Positions 33,274 to 40,607 of a stretch of DNA of 64,000 nucleotides are shown here, piece after piece (the stretch's first letter is position 1; each line of letters starts with the position of its first letter). The notes below the pieces were generated by a model. That model was not told the origin of the DNA. It saw only the letters and a list, made by a program, of their open reading frames with translations, and made no database searches. The DNA comes from Geodermatophilus bullaregiensis (GTDB lineage Bacteria > Actinomycetota > Actinomycetes > Mycobacteriales > Geodermatophilaceae). The stretch lies in NCBI RefSeq assembly GCF_016907675.1, contig NZ_JAFBCJ010000001.1:3720001-3784000 (forward strand). The letters run 5' to 3'. The position numbers were made by a program, and so were the translations under genes.

Positions 33274-34092
33274 CTAGTCGCTACTGCTGGGCACCGGGTG
33301 CAGGTGCAGGCGCGCGCTGGACAGCATCGCGTTGGCCCGGTCGAGGTCGGCCTCGAAGTCGACCTCCACGGCGGCGAACCGGGAGATGTCCAGCGGCCGG
33401 AACCGCAGGCCCGCCTCGGCGATCGCCGTCTCCATGCCGCGCTCGAAGTAGTCCTGGTCGCCGACGGCGTCCAGGTGCTCGACGAGGGTGGCCTTGTCCG
33501 CCGCGGACACGTAGTTGATGCCCACCGCCTCGCCGAGCCCGCCGGTCACCGTCTTCGACAGCCCGGCGATGAAGCCGTCCGCGTCGAGGGTGTACTTGAC
33601 CTCCTCCTCGGCGACGGTGGAGGTGTCGACGCACACGAAGCTCTCGTCGGCCTGCAGCGCGGGCAGCACGGCCTCCAGGACGGCGGCGTCGAACACGACG
33701 TCGCCGTTGAGCCACAGCGCCCCGCCCTCGCGGGTGGTCCGCAGCCCGCGCAGCAGGCTCTTGGACGTGTTGGTCCGCGCGAAGTGCGGGTTGTAGGCGA
33801 AGCGCAGGTCCGGCGCGGCCTGCATGAGCAGCTCGCACTGGAAGCCGACGACCGCGGTGACGTCGACGGCCGGGCCGAGCACCTGCTCGAGCGTGTCGAG
33901 CTGGCGGTGCAGGATGCTCCGCCCGTCGACCAGCGGGGTCAGCGGCTTGGGCAGCGGCCGGCCCAGGCGGGTGCCCATCCCGGCGGCCAGGATGACCACC
34001 TGGACGGGGACCGGCCGCGGGCGGGCGCCTGGCCGCGCAGCGAGCATCCTGCCGTGCAGTTGGGCGGTCTTCGCGAGGTCAGCGATGCGCAC
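33274..34092 (-). CDS. Nucleotidyltransferase, CTP:alditol/choline-phosphate type
   Basis: 272 residues. The NTP-transferase motif VVILAAGMGTRLG (33-45) and the following PKPLTPL are intact; the metal-binding Asp is in LWLNGDVVFD. It most resembles the small LicC/Mnp1-like cytidylyltransferases rather than glucose-1-phosphate enzymes, but base specificity is an inference. A GTG start at 34092 with GAGGAGG upstream overlaps the polymerase stop by 14 bp. It is the last gene of a four-gene operon and would make the CDP-activated alditol. Confidence 0.82.
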   Translation of the reverse strand: MRIADLAKTAQLHGRMLAARPGARPRPVPVQVVILAAGMGTRLGRPLPKPLTPLVDGRSILHRQLDTLEQVLGPAVDVTAVVGFQCELLMQAAPDLRFAYNPHFARTNTSKSLLRGLRTTREGGALWLNGDVVFDAAVLEAVLPALQADESFVCVDTSTVAEEEVKYTLDADGFIAGLSKTVTGGLGEAVGINYVSAADKATLVEHLDAVGDQDYFERGMETAIAEAGLRFRPLDISRFAAVEVDFEADLDRANAMLSSARLHLHPVPSSSD

Positions 34093-35209
34093 TGTGGTCC
34101 CCTCCTCGGGTCGTCGGAGCTGCGCCGGCGGGGGATCCGCCGGGCGGGAAGAACAGGTCGAGGACGCGCTCGGTGGCGTGCCCGTCCTCGAGGGCGGTGA
34201 AGGTCTCCCGGAACCGCGCGTAGCGCTCGGCGTGCGCGGCGGTGACCCGGTCGAGGTCGGCGACGGCGTCGACGAGCTCGCGGCTGGTCGCCAGCAGCGG
34301 CCCCGGCGCCACCTCCTCCAGGTCGAAGTAGAAGCCGCGCAGCCGGTCGCGGTACTCGGCCAGGTCGTAGGTGAAGAGCAGGATCGGCTTGCCGGTGATG
34401 GCGAAGTCGAACATCGTCGACGAGTAGTCGGTGACCAGCAGGTCCGCCGCCAGGTACAGGTCGCGGATGTCCGGGTAGGCGGACACGTCCCGCACCGGCA
34501 TGCCCTCGATCGGCTCGAGCCGGTCGGAGACCATGCTGTGCAGCCGCAGCAGCAGCACGTGGTCCCCGCCCAGCCGGGCGCTGAAGTCGGCGAGGTCGAC
34601 GGGGAAGTCGAAGTCCTTCGCGCCGGTGCCCTCGAAGACCAGGTCGTCGCGCCAGGTGGGCGTGTAGAGGACGACGCGGGTCCCCTCGCCGATGCCCAGC
34701 TGTGCCCGCACCTGCGCGCGCACCTCGTCGCGCCGCGGGCTGGAGAGCAGGTCGTTGCGGGGGTAGCCGGTCTCGTGCACCGGGCCGGTGAAGCCGAAGG
34801 CCTGCCGGAACCGCGGCGTGCTGACCGGGTTCGGCGACAGCAGCGCGTCCCAGCGGGCGATGTCGTGCTCCAGGTAGGCCAGCCGGCCCTCCGGCGCCCA
34901 GAGGACGTCGTTGTGGATCCGCTTGAGCGGCGTGCCGTGCCAGGTCTGCAGGTAGAGGGTGTCCGGCCGCTTCTCCCAGTCCAGGGGCACGTGGTCGTTG
35001 GACAGCACGACGTCGGCGGACTCGAGCGCGGCGATGCTCTCCGGGCTGCCGAAGGGGATCGTCTCGACGCCGGCCGGGAAGGCGTCCTCGGCGACGCTCG
35101 AGGTCAGCCAGGTGTGGGTGACGTCGTCGCCGCGGGCCACGAGTGCCTCGTAGACGGCGCGGGGGCTGTCGGAGAACAGCCCGCGGAAGCTGCTGTAGAC
35201 GATCCTCAT
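34079..35209 (-). CDS. CDP-glycerol glycerophosphotransferase-like polymerase (TagF/TarF type)
   Basis: 376 residues from ATG at 35209 with GGGAGGAG before it. The C-terminal catalytic half carries TWHGTPLKRI and VTDYSSTMFDFAITGKPIL (about 257-276), with RDRLRGFYFD after, the signature of poly(alditol-phosphate) transferases. It would transfer an alditol phosphate from a CDP donor to a wall polymer at the inner membrane face. The start overlaps the HAD stop (ATGA), so it is translationally coupled. Confidence 0.9.
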   Translation of the reverse strand: MRIVYSSFRGLFSDSPRAVYEALVARGDDVTHTWLTSSVAEDAFPAGVETIPFGSPESIAALESADVVLSNDHVPLDWEKRPDTLYLQTWHGTPLKRIHNDVLWAPEGRLAYLEHDIARWDALLSPNPVSTPRFRQAFGFTGPVHETGYPRNDLLSSPRRDEVRAQVRAQLGIGEGTRVVLYTPTWRDDLVFEGTGAKDFDFPVDLADFSARLGGDHVLLLRLHSMVSDRLEPIEGMPVRDVSAYPDIRDLYLAADLLVTDYSSTMFDFAITGKPILLFTYDLAEYRDRLRGFYFDLEEVAPGPLLATSRELVDAVADLDRVTAAHAERYARFRETFTALEDGHATERVLDLFFPPGGSPAGAAPTTRGGDHSAHR

Positions 35210-36003
35210 GGGGCTCCTCCCGGAGTGGCGGTCACGTCCCGGCCGGCGAGGACGGGCAGCAGCAGGTCGGCGAGCTCCTGCCAGGACGTGACGACGACCA
35301 GCACGCCGGCCTCCCGCAGTGCGGCCTCCCGGTCGGCGCGCTCGGCCGGCTGGACGAAGAGCAGGTTGCCCACCGTAGGGCAGCCCGCCCGCACCGCCGA
35401 CAGGGCACCGGGCACGGAGTCCTCGACCGCCAGGCCGGCCGCCGGGGCGATGCCCAGCTGTGCGCAGGCGTGCAGGTAGACGGCCGGGTCGGGCTTGCTG
35501 GTGGGCGTCGGGAGGGAGTCCTCGGCGCTGAAACGGGCCGCCGGCGGGATGAGCTCGTCGAGCCCGGTGGCGGTGAAGCAGGCGGCCAGGCGGCCCAGCG
35601 CGCTGGAGCTCACCGCGGCCAGCCGGAGGTGCGCAGCCAGCGCGGTGAGGGCGGACGTCGTCGGCTCGTGCGGGCGCAGGTGCTCCCCGAGGTACGCCGT
35701 GACCGCGCGGCGCTCCTCGGCCACCCACGGCTCGACGTCGACCTCGGGCCGGCCCGCCTCGGCGGCCAGCCGCCGCGACGTCGTCCGGAAGTTCATGCCG
35801 GTGGTGGCCAGGCGCAGCTCCTCCGGGGTGAACCGGCGCTCGTCGCCGAGCTCGCCGAGGAAGCGGTTGGTCACCTCCGCGGAGGCGACGAAGGCCGGCT
35901 CCTCGGAGGGGAAGAGGTTGCCGTCGGCGTCGCAGAGCAGGGTGGTGAGGCCGGCGACGACGTCCCGGGGGAGGGCCGTCGCGGCCGTGCGGAGAGCGCT
36001 CAC
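35206..36003 (-). CDS. HAD-superfamily phosphatase, subfamily IA
   Basis: 265 residues from a GTG at 36003. Motif I is LLCDADGNLFPSE (nucleophile Asp25, general acid Asp27). A helical cap follows, then motif II (SSSALGR), the motif III Lys in SKPDPAVY and motif IV EDSVPGAL. It dephosphorylates a small sugar or polyol phosphate, or acts as a phosphoglycolate-type enzyme. Both ends overlap neighbouring genes by 4 bp. Confidence 0.88.
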   Translation of the reverse strand: MSALRTAATALPRDVVAGLTTLLCDADGNLFPSEEPAFVASAEVTNRFLGELGDERRFTPEELRLATTGMNFRTTSRRLAAEAGRPEVDVEPWVAEERRAVTAYLGEHLRPHEPTTSALTALAAHLRLAAVSSSALGRLAACFTATGLDELIPPAARFSAEDSLPTPTSKPDPAVYLHACAQLGIAPAAGLAVEDSVPGALSAVRAGCPTVGNLLFVQPAERADREAALREAGVLVVVTSWQELADLLLPVLAGRDVTATPGGAP

Positions 36004-37577
36004 CGGGCGTCCGCGGCGGTGGCGGCGGAGGTGGCGGAGGTGGCGGAGGCGACGGTCGCCCGCACGCCGTCCCGCTCGAACCGGCACAGCACGGCGGCGA
36101 GCTCGTCGGCGAAGCCGGGCACGCGGCCGAGGTCGCCGAACACCGGCTCGTCGGCCAGCAGCGGCCGCGGGTCGGTGCCGCCGGCACGTGCGAGTGCCTG
36201 CAGGTGCGGCCCGCAGTCGTCCTCCACCGGCAGCGGGTGGCCGGCGTCGTCGGTCCGCTGCAGCCAGCGCACCCACCCGGCGACGGCGAGGGTGAGCAGC
36301 GCGTGCGGGCGGCCCTGTGCCAGCGCCTCGCGCAGCGAGGGCAGCAGGTGGTGCGGCAGCTTGGTCGAGCCGCGGCGGCAGAGCCGGGAGAGCCGGTCGG
36401 CGATGGCCGGGTTGGCGAAGCGCTGCAAGAGCACCGCCTTGTACTCGGCGAGGTCGACGCCCTCCGGGCACGGGATCAGCGGGGTGACCTCGTCGTCCAT
36501 GAGGGCGGTGACGTAGCGCGCGAAGACCGGGTCGCCCATCAGCTCGTCGATGCGCTCGTAGCCGGCGAGGACGCCGAGGTAGCCCAGCGCCGAGTGGCTG
36601 GCGTTGAGCAGCCGGGTCTTCATCAGCTCGTGCTCGGTGACGTCGCGGACGAACCGGACGCCGACCCGGTCCAGCGGCGGCCGGCCGTTGCAGAAGACGT
36701 CCTCGATCACCCACTGGGAGAACGGCTCGGTGATCACCGGCCAGCGGTCGTCGATGCCGTGCCGGGCGGCCACGGCGGCCCGCTCCTCCGGCGTGGTCTG
36801 CGGCGTGATCCGGTCGACCATGCTGCTCGGGAAGGCCACCCGGTCGGCGATCCAGCGGGCGAGCACCTCGTCGCGCAGGGCGGCGAACCCCACGACGGCG
36901 GTGCGGGTGGCGTCGCCGTTGCGGTGCAGGTTGTCGCAGGACAGGACCGTGAAGGGGGCGGTGCCCGCCCGCCGGCGGCGGTCGAGCGCCTCGACGAGGA
37001 GACCGAAGACGGTGCGCGGGGCGCCGGGGGAGGCGAGGTCGTGCTCGACGTCGTCGTCGGGGGTGAAGGCCCCGGTGGTGGGGTCGAGCAGGTAGCCCGC
37101 GCCGGTGATGGTCATCGTCACGATGCGGGTGCGCGGGTCGGCCAGCCGGTCGAGGACGGCGCCGGGGGCGTCGGGCGCGAACAGGTAGTCGGTGAGGACG
37201 CCGACGACGCGGGCGCGCTCGCCGTCGGGGCTGCGCTCGACGACGGTGTAGAGGTTGTCCTGGGGCGCGAGCGCCTCCTGCATGAGACGGGCCCGCAGGC
37301 CGACGCCGACGACGCCCCACTGGTCGGAGATCCGCCGCTCGGCGACCTCGTCGAAGTAGGTGAGCTGGTGGGCGCGCGAGAAGCCGCCGACGCTCAGGTG
37401 CACGACGGCCGGCACGAGCGCCGAGCGGTCGTAGGTGGGGACGGTGAGCCGGGTCCCGTGCTGCTCGAGCGTCGCGGCCGTCAGCGGCCGGATGCCGACG
37501 ACGGGAGCCGCCGCCGGTGCCGCAGCGACCGTGCCGGACCGCGGGTCGTCCCGCGGGGGGCGCTCGGGCAGTGCCAT
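36000..37577 (-). CDS. Mannitol dehydrogenase family polyol dehydrogenase
   Basis: 525 residues of the long-chain polyol dehydrogenase family (mannitol 2-dehydrogenase, fructuronate reductase, altronate or arabinitol enzymes). Seen: the N-terminal Rossmann entry VVHLSVGGFSRAHQ, CDNLHRNGDATR and the catalytic segment KTRLLNASHSALGYLG with its Lys/Asn/His. ATG at 37577 is the likely start; AAGGA lies further off than usual (about 15 bp). It is the first gene of the operon and would supply the alditol by reducing a ketose. Confidence 0.9.
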   Translation of the reverse strand: MALPERPPRDDPRSGTVAAAPAAAPVVGIRPLTAATLEQHGTRLTVPTYDRSALVPAVVHLSVGGFSRAHQLTYFDEVAERRISDQWGVVGVGLRARLMQEALAPQDNLYTVVERSPDGERARVVGVLTDYLFAPDAPGAVLDRLADPRTRIVTMTITGAGYLLDPTTGAFTPDDDVEHDLASPGAPRTVFGLLVEALDRRRRAGTAPFTVLSCDNLHRNGDATRTAVVGFAALRDEVLARWIADRVAFPSSMVDRITPQTTPEERAAVAARHGIDDRWPVITEPFSQWVIEDVFCNGRPPLDRVGVRFVRDVTEHELMKTRLLNASHSALGYLGVLAGYERIDELMGDPVFARYVTALMDDEVTPLIPCPEGVDLAEYKAVLLQRFANPAIADRLSRLCRRGSTKLPHHLLPSLREALAQGRPHALLTLAVAGWVRWLQRTDDAGHPLPVEDDCGPHLQALARAGGTDPRPLLADEPVFGDLGRVPGFADELAAVLCRFERDGVRATVASATSATSAATAADAR

Positions 37578-38043: not shown

Positions 38044-39144
38044 ATGGGCGTGCACCGGAGTGACGCGGACCTGTTGGTCCGGCCCGCGAGCGGATCGCAC
38101 GGGGCCGTGCCCGGTCCCCGGACCGGCGCCCACCGCCGCGCCGACGCCCGCCGGGTCTCCCCGCTGCGCGGCTTCCCCCCGGTCCGCCCCGACCTCGCCG
38201 GCCCGTCCGTCGTCCTGCCCACCCCGCGAGCGGCCCGTGAGGACTTCGGCGTCCCGGCTCCGGTCGCCGTCCCGTCCCGGGTCGCCGTCCCGTCCCCTGT
38301 CACCGTCGCCGCCCTGGCGACCGCGGTCCTGCCGGTCGACGAGCTGGCGGTCGACGAGGCGCCGGTCGACCAGGTCGCCGACGTCGAGGTCTCCCGGAGC
38401 GCGGTGGCCGACGTCCCCGCCGAGGCCGGCACGGCCGCTCCGCGCGCCGCCCGTCGGGGACGTGCCCGTGACCGCCGTCCGCACCTGCTGCTCGCCGCGC
38501 TCGTCGCCGGCGCCCTCGGCGCCGGCGCCTTCGGCCTGCACGGCGCCCCGGACGCCGCGGCGGAGCCCGCCTCGGCGCTGACCTCCCAGGACCAGCTGCT
38601 CACCGACGACGAGGCCGTCGAGGTGATGCCGATGGCCTCCATCACCGAGGCGGAGGCGCAGGCGCGCCTGCAGGAGGTGGCCGCGTCCCGCGCCGCGCGG
38701 GCCGCGGCGGAGGCCGCCGCCGCCGAGGCCGCCGCGGAGGCGGCGCGGCCCAAGACGGTCCTGCCCGTCGACGGTGCCCGGTTCACCAGCGGCTTCGGCG
38801 GGCGGTGGGGCACGTTCCACTACGGCATCGACCTGGCTGCGCCCATGCGGACGCCGGAGATGGCGGCGGCCGACGGCGTGGTGCTTCGCGCGGGTGCGGC
38901 CAGCGGCTTCGGCCTGGCCGTCTACGTCCTCCACGAGAACGGCGACGTGACCGTCTACGGCCACATGGACGAGATCCTGGTGGAGCCGGGGCAGTACGTG
39001 GAGGCCGGCGAGACGATCGCGCTGCTGGGCAACCGGGGGCAGTCGACCGGTCCGCACCTGCACTTCGAGGTGCACCAGGGCGGGATGAACGGCCAGCGGA
39101 TCGACCCGGTGGACTGGCTCGCCGAGCGCGGCGTCGAGATCTGA
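38044..39144 (+). CDS. M23 family metallopeptidase, membrane-anchored
   Basis: 366 residues. A Pro/Val-rich cytoplasmic N-terminus (1-145) is followed by a single membrane helix (about 147-166), an Ala/Glu coiled-coil linker (about 197-235) and a LytM domain (243-362). Zn ligands: His259 and Asp263 in HYGIDLAAP, and His340 in HLHFEVH, with His338 catalytic. It cleaves peptidoglycan cross-bridges outside the membrane. The preceding leader resembles a c-di-AMP riboswitch. ATG start with no strong ribosome site; sequestration by the riboswitch may matter. Confidence 0.93.
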   Translation: MGVHRSDADLLVRPASGSHGAVPGPRTGAHRRADARRVSPLRGFPPVRPDLAGPSVVLPTPRAAREDFGVPAPVAVPSRVAVPSPVTVAALATAVLPVDELAVDEAPVDQVADVEVSRSAVADVPAEAGTAAPRAARRGRARDRRPHLLLAALVAGALGAGAFGLHGAPDAAAEPASALTSQDQLLTDDEAVEVMPMASITEAEAQARLQEVAASRAARAAAEAAAAEAAAEAARPKTVLPVDGARFTSGFGGRWGTFHYGIDLAAPMRTPEMAAADGVVLRAGAASGFGLAVYVLHENGDVTVYGHMDEILVEPGQYVEAGETIALLGNRGQSTGPHLHFEVHQGGMNGQRIDPVDWLAERGVEI

Positions 39145-39245: not shown

Positions 39246-39318
39246 GGGGCTGTGGCGCAGCTGGTAGCGCACCACACTGGCAGTGTGGGGGTCAGGGGTT
39301 CGAGTCCCCTCAGCTCCA
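39246..39318 (+). tRNA. tRNA-Ala(GGC)
   Basis: 73 bases with a complete cloverleaf. The acceptor GGGGCTG pairs with CAGCTCC and shows the G3-U70 wobble that marks tRNA-Ala. The anticodon stem is CCACA/TGTGG with loop CTGGCAG, anticodon GGC; the T arm is AGGGG-TTCGAGT-CCCCT. Discriminator A; CCA not encoded. The 3' part is the island's attachment site. Confidence 0.97.
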
Positions 39319-39321
39319 CCC
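39277..39321 (+). repeat. attL: 45-bp direct repeat covering the tRNA-Ala 3' end
   Basis: From the anticodon loop to 3 bases past the tRNA, identical to 61638-61682. It is the typical integration core of tyrosine integrases at tRNA genes. Confidence 0.92.
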
Positions 39322-39328
39322 GTGTGAC

Positions 39329-39359
39329 CAGGCCGTTCCCCCTTTGGGGGAGCGGCCTG
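39329..39359 (+). terminator. tRNA-Ala terminator hairpin
   Basis: CAGGCCGTTCCCCC (39329-39342) pairs with 39346-39359 around TTT, with one G-T wobble. A counterpart with altered but still paired bases stands after the second att copy. Confidence 0.8.
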
Positions 39360-39410
39360 AGTCGTCTCTGGTGCCAGCGTGGTGGCCACTGGAGCACTTC
39401 CGGTTCCAGA

Positions 39411-40607
39411 TCAGTCCCACAGGGCGCTTCCCATGCGGTCTGCCGCGTCGCGGCCGAGGGCGGGCATTACGTGGCTGTAGGTGTCCGTGGTGGTTCGCAT
39501 CTGTGCGTGGCCGAGCACCTCCATGACGACTCGGGGGTGCACGCCCTCGGACAGCAGCAGGGTCGCTGCGGTGTGCCGCCCGTCGTGCAGTCGGACCTCG
39601 CGCACGCCCGCCTGGCGCAGGAGGGCCTTCCAGGCACGCCAGTCCGACTTGCGCTCGATCGGCCGGCCGTTGGGCTGGGCGAAGACCAGGTCGTGATCCT
39701 CCCAGAGGGGACCGGCGGCGATGCGCTCCTCGAGCTGGGCCGCCCTCTGCGCCTTCAACGCATCGACGAGTTGTGCCGGCAGCGCCAGGTTCCGGCGGCT
39801 GCGGTCGGCCTTGGGCTCCTCATAGACCAGGCCTTGCCCGCTGACCCGGTGCAGGCCGCGCCGAACGCTGAGCGTGCCGTTGTCCAGGTCGACGTCGCTC
39901 CACCGCAGGGCGAGCGCTTCGGACTGACGCAGCCCGACGGCCAGCGCCACGGTCCACCGGGCGGCGTTGCGGTGCGTCTGCGCGGCGGCCATCACCTTCC
40001 TGGCCTCCTGCGCGCTCAGCGGCAGGGCGGTCTCCGGCCGCTTGACCGTGGGCGGATCGACGAGGGTGGCGACGTTGCGGGCGACCTTGGCGCGCTGCGA
40101 GGCGACGCGTAGAGCGCGGGAGAGCACCCGGTGGGCGCGGAGGATCGAGGCCGGGCTCAACCCCTTGTCAGAGAGCGCGCCGTAGAGGCGTTCCAGGTGT
40201 TCCGGTTGCAGCCGGTCGAGCCGGTGGTGCCCGATGCCTGGGCGGAGGTGCAGCCGCACGGTGCTGCGATAGCTCTCCAGAGTCCGCGCGCGGACCTTCC
40301 GGGCCGCGATGTTGTCCAGCCAGTGGTCCAACCACTCACCAACCGTGGGTGCACGGCCGGCTGCGTCGACCACACCGGCGTCCCGTTTGGCCTCGATGGC
40401 GCGGACCTTGGCCACCACATCGGCGCGCTTGGCGCCCGAGACGTGGCGTCGATCGCGCCGCCCGTTCTCCTTCTTGCCCATCGACACGAAGCCGTGCCAC
40501 CGACCGTCCTCGTCCCGGTAGATGGAGGACTCGCCGCTGGCGCGCTTCTTATTCCCTGCCGTCCGACGCCGCGGAGTCGTGCTGTCTCGTTCCTCGGCGT
40601 CCCTCAT
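39411..40607 (-). CDS. int: Tyrosine-type site-specific integrase
   Basis: 398 residues from ATG at 40607 (GGGAG 8 bp upstream; an upstream in-frame start at 40685 has no such site). The N-terminal AP2-like arm-binding part includes SIYRDEDGRWHGFVS. The SAM-like core-binding domain is around residues 85-170. The catalytic domain has Arg in VGLRQSEALAL (about 224), HDGRHTAA (His and Arg, about 339-342), LGHAQ (His, about 366) and the nucleophile Tyr in TYSHV (about 375). It recombines attP with the tRNA-Ala site, which lies 90 bp beyond its stop. Confidence 0.95.
   Translation of the reverse strand: MRDAEERDSTTPRRRTAGNKKRASGESSIYRDEDGRWHGFVSMGKKENGRRDRRHVSGAKRADVVAKVRAIEAKRDAGVVDAAGRAPTVGEWLDHWLDNIAARKVRARTLESYRSTVRLHLRPGIGHHRLDRLQPEHLERLYGALSDKGLSPASILRAHRVLSRALRVASQRAKVARNVATLVDPPTVKRPETALPLSAQEARKVMAAAQTHRNAARWTVALAVGLRQSEALALRWSDVDLDNGTLSVRRGLHRVSGQGLVYEEPKADRSRRNLALPAQLVDALKAQRAAQLEERIAAGPLWEDHDLVFAQPNGRPIERKSDWRAWKALLRQAGVREVRLHDGRHTAATLLLSEGVHPRVVMEVLGHAQMRTTTDTYSHVMPALGRDAADRMGSALWD

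Follow-up and report, generated by a model that had tools for sequence, protein, structure and literature searches.

The window analysed here, a 64,000 nt stretch of the genome of Geodermatophilus bullaregiensis (contig NZ_JAFBCJ010000001.1, positions 3,720,001–3,784,000; the host genome is a single contig of 5.2 Mb), contains an operon of four overlapping genes coding for a polyol dehydrogenase of the mannitol dehydrogenase family (MDH), a HAD-type enzyme (HAD), a TagF-like transferase (TagF, gene tagF) and a nucleotidyltransferase (NTP). Comparison with relatives indicates that this operon is one of two alleles exchanged within tagF, a result that goes beyond the gene content described in a first-pass annotation of the window. 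The four genes are, in their order in the operon:

36000–37577, minus strand: MDH, 525 aa, ATG start, first gene of the operon; PF01232 and PF08125
35206–36003, minus strand: HAD, 265 aa, GTG start; subclass IA phosphatase/phosphotransferase; PF00702/PF13419
34079–35209, minus strand: TagF-like protein, 376 aa, ATG start; TagF/TarF-type CDP-alditol phosphotransferase family; PF04464
33274–34092, minus strand: NTP, 272 aa, GTG start, last gene; LicC/PntC-like nucleotidyltransferase; PF12804

The overlaps are of 4 bp (MDH/HAD), 4 bp (HAD/tagF) and 14 bp (tagF/NTP), and GGAGG-type sites lie upstream of the tagF-like and NTP genes. The four gene families, their order, the overlaps of 4–14 bp and the arrangement as one compact operon, all proposed in the first-pass annotation, were borne out by the open reading frames and the Pfam matches.

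Two forms of the locus and their exchange

Of 112 genomes of the family, 89 have a TagF (identity threshold 57%), and NTP adjoined it in every case (89/89). HAD lay beside TagF in 57 of these 89 genomes and MDH was also in place in 56 of them (in G043 a contig end interrupts the locus). The same four genes are therefore found elsewhere, and their grouping is not due to chance, since half of the family genomes sampled (56/112) have MDH, HAD and TagF at one place, always with NTP beside TagF. Neither MDH nor HAD was found beside TagF in the other 32 genomes; in one of them, G095, the contig breaks off and the form is undecided, leaving 31. We designate MDH-HAD-TagF-NTP as the four-gene form and TagF-NTP as the two-gene form. 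Both are present in four genus groups (g1, g2, g3 and g9), with the following distribution:

g1: 17 four-gene, 7 two-gene
g2: 17 four-gene, 5 two-gene
g3: 9 four-gene, 7 two-gene
g9: 11 four-gene, 12 two-gene (G095 within the 12)
g11: 3 four-gene
g4: 1 two-gene

Synteny, mapped for 36 loci, placed those of g1, g2, g3 and g11 at one site, those of g9 at another and that of G065 (g4) at a third; the g9 locus L067 differs upstream from the other g9 loci. We found no HAD orthologue anywhere in the genome in 30 of the 31 two-gene genomes (best E value 2.4e-11), the exception being G065, which carries an MDH-HAD pair elsewhere (L090). A mere relocation of MDH-HAD in the two-gene genomes is thus ruled out for HAD. 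Among the 32 genomes that lack the block, a count that takes in G095 and G065, an MDH-family match of some kind was present in 15 and absent from 17; identities among the matches listed were 45–49%, except for 61% for the G065 pair. Among the best 80 of at least 587 named TagF loci, with neighbours counted on the same strand within the flank, 12 had MDH, HAD and NTP, seven had NTP only, two had MDH and HAD, and 59 had none. The four-gene form occurs in the named species G. telluris, Blastococcus xanthinilyticus, B. aggregatus and Modestobacter caceresii, and the two-gene form in B. tunisiensis and M. muralis. A tandem arrangement, MDH-HAD fragment-MDH-HAD-TagF-NTP, with NTP cut by the contig end, was seen in L091 (G096).

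Trees and residue counts were obtained from 36 or 35 of the 89 loci, picked for spread; the set of 35 genomes comprises 17 four-gene and 18 two-gene ones, with G065 and paralogues left out. Trees were quick and without bootstrap, except for one TagF tree made by a careful method with support values. With 35 genomes, the tree of TagF residues 1–150 implied one change of form and nine of genus, and that of residues 151–290 two and eight, respectively, whereas the tree of residues 310–376 implied 11 changes of form and five of genus, and the NTP tree ten and four. The whole TagF tree, over 36 labelled rows, had three changes of form, and none of 500 shuffles was as low. The whole NTP tree had ten, against which 69 and 82 of 500 shuffles were counted for two labels, and three flanking genes from 25 genomes had seven (97 and 112 of 500 shuffles). 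Mean identities, compared among 25 genomes of g1, g2, g3 and g11, followed the same division: TagF was less similar within a genus between forms (63.4%) than between genera within a form (71.2%), in contrast to NTP (77.9% versus 69.0%) and to the flanking genes (72.8% versus 65.9%).

The contrast is also seen along tagF itself, examined at the DNA level in windows of 150 columns. Four close cross-form pairs were 66–77% identical over columns 1–750, 77–86% over the next 300 and 85–97% beyond, whereas the cross-genus pair L041/L042, of the same form, was 78–90% identical over the first 900 columns and 61–83% beyond. Additionally, 12 of the 376 TagF positions are form-specific, ten of them within residues 37–115, compared with zero in every one of 200 shuffles within genera; among the 272 positions of NTP none is form-specific, even at a looser threshold at which TagF gives 42. 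These data delimit two features of tagF:

34865–35101, minus strand: tagF codons 37–115, holding ten of the 12 form-specific positions
34160–34345, minus strand: putative recombination boundary, at about codons 290–350, separating the exchanged 5′ part of tagF from its species-type 3′ part; from the DNA identity windows and the segment trees

Because TagF residues 1–150 follow form, whereas the 3′ end of tagF, NTP and the flanking genes follow genus, MDH, HAD and the 5′ part of tagF behave as one unit that excludes NTP, and this unit moves between genera as a single allele. It is unlikely that each genus lost MDH-HAD separately and that TagF then evolved in a relaxed manner, given that 11 two-gene TagF rows from g1, g2 and g3 group as a single clade (support 100/99 in the careful tree) and that residues 1–150 split only once.

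The surroundings of the operon include the following genes:

38044–39144, divergent from the operon, upstream of MDH: peptidase-like gene, named by eye
39246–40607, adjoining the operon: tRNA-Ala gene and, just beyond it, an integrase-like gene (39411–40607, by eye)

From the downstream side, CopC/YcnI/SCO1-like genes, also named by eye, converge on the operon. Genes of the same clusters as those on the tRNA-Ala/integrase side turn up near the locus in several relatives, and an integration hotspot at the tRNA gene may aid allele exchange. A promoter scan of the locus returned no promoter-like site, and a terminator scan returned two terminator-like sites (0.6 expected), one within tagF and the other on the opposite strand upstream of MDH.

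The four proteins and their relatives

MDH contains both Mannitol_dh domains (PF01232, 154.7 bits, and PF08125, 166.9 bits; cut-offs 27 and 30.7). Its nearest solved structures are the mannitol 2-dehydrogenases 7rk4 and 1lj8, and its residues K320, N325 and H328 align with K295, N300 and H303 of 1lj8, which we take to be the catalytic ones. MDH is thus classed, from its sequence, as a long-chain mannitol 2-dehydrogenase (M2DH) and not as a mannitol-1-phosphate (M1P) dehydrogenase. As a candidate M1P 5-dehydrogenase it scored 28–63 bits with NCBIfam models whose cut-offs are at least 269 (the top score was 62.8 versus 368), and as a candidate bifunctional MtlD 27 bits versus a cut-off of 800; both identities were rejected. 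The host genome codes for a second MDH-family protein (G000:C1:4286000–4287466), 49% identical to that of the operon.

All the subclass IA motifs (DxD, Ser, Lys and (E)D) are present in HAD: in an alignment of 42 sequences, that of the operon included, D25, D27, S133, E194 and D195 were invariant and K170 was conserved in at least 90%. HAD is predicted to be an intact phosphatase or phosphotransferase. The nearest fold match to its structure model (pLDDT, predicted local distance difference test score, 94) was 2fdr, an uncharacterised HAD protein, and the others included phosphatases, pyrophosphatases, beta-phosphoglucomutases and YniC.

The TagF-like protein matches PF04464 over residues 3–353 with 306.8 bits (cut-off 22.1) and is the sole PF04464 protein of the host. 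Residues H91 and H224 align with the histidines changed in the PDB entries 3l7j and 3l7m, presumably the catalytic pair. It misses the NCBIfam equivalog cut-offs for TarF (248/550 bits), TarL (81/1000) and TarB (41/500), and is as short as TarF and TarB, without the N-terminal ca. 350 residues of TagF. The first-pass annotation called it a TagF-type polymerase; the family was right, but a protein of TarF/TarB size is better described as a putative transferase only.

The structure model of NTP (pLDDT 90) retrieved CTP enzymes at all of the first nine PDB ranks (PntC, IPCT-DIPPS and LicC, 19–21% identity), with GlmU at rank 10. Sequence profiles gave weak matches throughout, GlmU being first and LicC seventh, and a single-sequence search of the PDB at 0.001 gave no match. 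From the modelled fold, NTP is taken to be LicC/PntC-like and not Mnp1-like, so that of the earlier label "LicC/Mnp1-like" the first half stands and the second, for reasons of family given below, does not. Locus L127 (7399–8854) holds a tandem of two NTP-type genes whose products share 40 and 64% identity with NTP of the operon; they lie near genes of clusters seen elsewhere as parts of ATP-binding cassette (ABC) exporters.

Outside the four-gene form, the operon splits into halves. In each of the 17 loci fetched for MDH-HAD pairs, both TagF and NTP were missing, so the pair is useful without NTP. Natural fusions divide the operon at the same place: MDH and HAD are joined, MDH first, in a protein of 787 residues from another family of the class (L156:7754–10117), and TagF-NTP is a single open frame in L128 and L051 (615 and 645 aa), suggestive of true fusions. 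The L156 fusion adjoins an alditol oxidase-like gene and a sugar ABC transporter (by eye). In a sample of 394 genomes of the class, HAD was matched (at 1e-30) in ten, two of them family members. The other eight comprise two loci with MDH-HAD-TagF (L155 and L158), one with HAD-TagF (L157), the L156 fusion, an MDH-HAD pair whose contig ends after HAD (L154), and three order-level relatives (L159, L160 and L161) with MDH-HAD followed by a second MDH and a kinase-like gene (PfkB by eye). No NTP match at 1e-20 was obtained in the genomes of L155 (G313), L158 (G257) and L157 (G322), compared with 53 of the 394 that have one, the genome draws behind both counts appearing to be identical. MDH-HAD-TagF without an adjoining NTP was also found in Nocardioides (named loci L186 and L188), to which the L155/L158 family, f29, is probably kin. 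The two f29 proteins pair off separately on long branches in the MDH tree, which agrees with replacement or separate recruitment, although branches of such length make this unsure.

Relatives of NTP were examined in 20 loci from the same 394 genomes, with Pfam scans of chosen neighbours. The neighbours were various: at L125 they included two CDP-alcohol phosphotransferases and components of an ABC-2 exporter, at L129 a glycerophosphodiesterase along with a weak TagF-like protein, and at L143 a LicD-like protein. Neither MDH nor HAD was among the displayed neighbours, at most six per side, of any of the 20 loci.

A possible surface-phosphodiester locus

Our tentative proposal, with a probability of about 0.4, is a surface-phosphodiester locus of which the operon represents one allele and in which NTP would be the constant CDP-donor enzyme and MDH-HAD would handle a free alditol for the accompanying form of TagF. 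The genes, the block exchange, the NTP shared by both forms and the conserved catalytic residues are established here; we infer which way the MDH and HAD reactions run, that the nucleotide is CTP and the alditol mannitol, that the latter acts as acceptor, and that the location is the wall. The same CDP-alcohol in both forms is the simplest assumption, because NTP is the same in both; similarly, because MDH-HAD follow the N-terminal lobe of TagF, it is simplest that they supply what this lobe handles. NTP would use CTP to make a CDP-alcohol donor common to both alleles, from which the TagF-like enzyme would transfer the phospho-alcohol. HAD would dephosphorylate a ketose phosphate (fructose-6-phosphate) to the ketose, MDH would reduce this to the alditol (mannitol), and TagF would take the alditol as acceptor or build it into the acceptor side of the product. 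The alditol may act as acceptor, form a unit of the chain or stand at its end; mannitol is a default guess from the M2DH family, and the HAD and MDH steps might run in reverse, for salvage. The other allele would have no MDH-HAD and a TagF with a different N-terminal lobe. A more far-reaching version, which we regard as doubtful, is a modular phosphodiester synthase made of two halves, one constant and serving the donor (NTP and the TagF C-terminal end), the other exchangeable and serving the acceptor (MDH-HAD and the TagF N-terminal lobe). The exchangeable half would recombine between genera as one allele and switch between an alditol-containing and an alditol-free surface, a polymorphism that would be kept by selection, e.g. 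by phage pressure.

Several observations weigh against this proposal. Two pairs of two-gene loci, each from within one genus, are also less identical over the first 1050 columns of tagF (78–89%) than later (88–97%), so that part of the contrast between its 5′ and 3′ parts comes from faster change in the 5′ part. The residue signature of the forms did not extend outside the family: N100 is present in 17 of 17 four-gene TagFs and in none of five outside TagFs linked to HAD. H73 is common in outgroup TagFs, given which the two-gene N-terminal lobe may be the derived one, and Kineococcus vitellinus has TagF-NTP with H73 yet without MDH-HAD. The clusters L159–L161, a possible polyol pathway, look catabolic. 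The substrates named for all four proteins are predicted ones, and NTP could be promiscuous, which would rescue a linear pathway. Finally, no match in the host exceeded the TagD cut-off (TIGR01518), but a TagD-like protein (G000:C1:3418712–3419083, 54/165 bits) lies in what appears by eye to be an exopolysaccharide-like cluster, and CDP-glycerol may have another source in this host.

The linear pathway is that of the first-pass annotation, from reductase through CTP activation to polymer, with HAD recast as a phosphotransferase: MDH would make the alditol, HAD would phosphorylate it, NTP would convert it to CDP-alditol and TagF would polymerise it. The coupling of MDH-HAD to TagF that it implies agrees with their shared allele history, but the pathway as a whole is weakened because NTP, which has no form-specific residues, is shared with genomes lacking HAD. 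NTP does not vary with the allele, and MDH-HAD-TagF occurs without NTP beside it. For HAD as a kinase, its position near the beta-phosphoglucomutase group is favourable, whereas many of the fold matches listed are phosphatases or pyrophosphatases, and HAD enzymes, to our knowledge, seldom act as kinases. With a precedent for the same set of roles at one locus in pneumococcal gtp1-gtp2-gtp3-wchX, at the level of putative assignments in PMC3493582, we consider this pathway possible but rather unlikely.

We find it unlikely that the role of MDH-HAD is just to make a polyol such as mannitol as a compatible solute, or to salvage it, with the operon shared with TagF-NTP for common regulation only. 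Stand-alone MDH-HAD pairs do exist, and the phosphatase domain of MtlD with bound mannitol-1-phosphate (7ocu) is among the HAD fold matches, at rank 30; nevertheless, the operon MDH is of M2DH type and scores well short of the bifunctional MtlD cut-off, and a mere neighbour would hardly share the allele history of the TagF N-terminal lobe over four genus groups while NTP does not. A shorter route, in which MDH would turn fructose-6-phosphate into mannitol-1-phosphate, NTP would make CDP-mannitol, TagF would polymerise it and HAD would clear excess mannitol phosphate, is very improbable: MDH groups with mannitol 2-dehydrogenases and falls far short of the M1P dehydrogenase cut-offs, HAD would oppose the pathway and NTP is not allele-specific, even if D-mannitol phosphate occurs in Brevibacterium walls (as cited in PMC10918830).

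Under the proposed surface-phosphodiester locus, the operon offers candidate genes for alditol-phosphate polymers, and a phosphatase and a polyol dehydrogenase gain a probable place in surface phosphodiester synthesis, being linked genetically to the TagF-type enzyme and not to the nucleotidyltransferase. The two alternative alleles occur across four genus groups of actinobacteria from soil and rock, and wall-polymer switching outside pathogens becomes testable, as the difference between close species amounts to two entire genes plus one lobe of an enzyme. Literature searches on Geodermatophilaceae and teichoic acids returned nothing relevant, judged on titles and abstract openings, and one on CDP-mannitol found no paper containing that term. 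According to a recent paper (PMC10918830, 2024), Streptococcus pneumoniae 35A is the only case in which the D-mannitol phosphate genes have a functional annotation.

Comparison with known systems

The TagF-like protein shares with the staphylococcal TagF/TarF enzymes (PDB 3l7i series) the PF04464 catalytic region and both of the histidines changed in 3l7j and 3l7m, and differs from them in its missing N-terminal region, its low TarF score and its partner genes. Similarity to the pneumococcal Mnp1/Mnp2 pair lies in the predicted type of product, an activated hexitol, and in the pairing of a reductase with a nucleotidyltransferase. The families are different: according to PMC10918830, Mnp1 belongs to PF01128 and Mnp2 to PF01370, compared with PF12804 and PF01232/PF08125 in the operon, so that the "similar parts" suggested earlier were not found. 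Homology to Mnp1/Mnp2 was rejected, as neither PF01128 nor PF01370 is among the Pfam matches of the four proteins. The host genome has one strong PF01128 match (198 bits) and a weak one (31.8 bits, cut-off 27) in a GlmU-like gene (by eye).

In the pneumococcal pathway to CDP-2-glycerol, Gtp1 reduces dihydroxyacetone and Gtp3 phosphorylates glycerol. Compared by gene names and roles, gtp1-gtp2-gtp3-wchX resembles the operon in having a dehydrogenase, a phosphotransferase, a nucleotidyltransferase and a polyol-phosphate transferase at one locus; the genes are given together in PMC3493582 as a putative glycerol-2-phosphate dehydrogenase (gtp1), nucleotidyl transferase (gtp2), phosphotransferase (gtp3) and glycerol phosphotransferase (wchX). 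The operon differs in that its NTP is not tied to the other parts.

Bifunctional MtlD also partners a polyol dehydrogenase with a HAD phosphatase, as does the natural L156 fusion, but the operon MDH is of M2DH rather than M1P type. The order of the parts also differs: MDH comes first in L156, whereas the HAD part probably comes first in MtlD, since MDH matches positions 505–627 of the 683 of the MtlD model.

Capsule and serotype switching loci occupy a single site where recombination across species brings in alternative alleles while the neighbouring genes stay constant. The presence or absence of MDH-HAD as a block across genera appears to resemble such surface-type switching in other bacteria, with alternative alleles, one site and constant neighbours in common; here, in contrast, there are two forms, the hosts are soil and rock actinobacteria, and the putative boundary lies inside the transferase gene.

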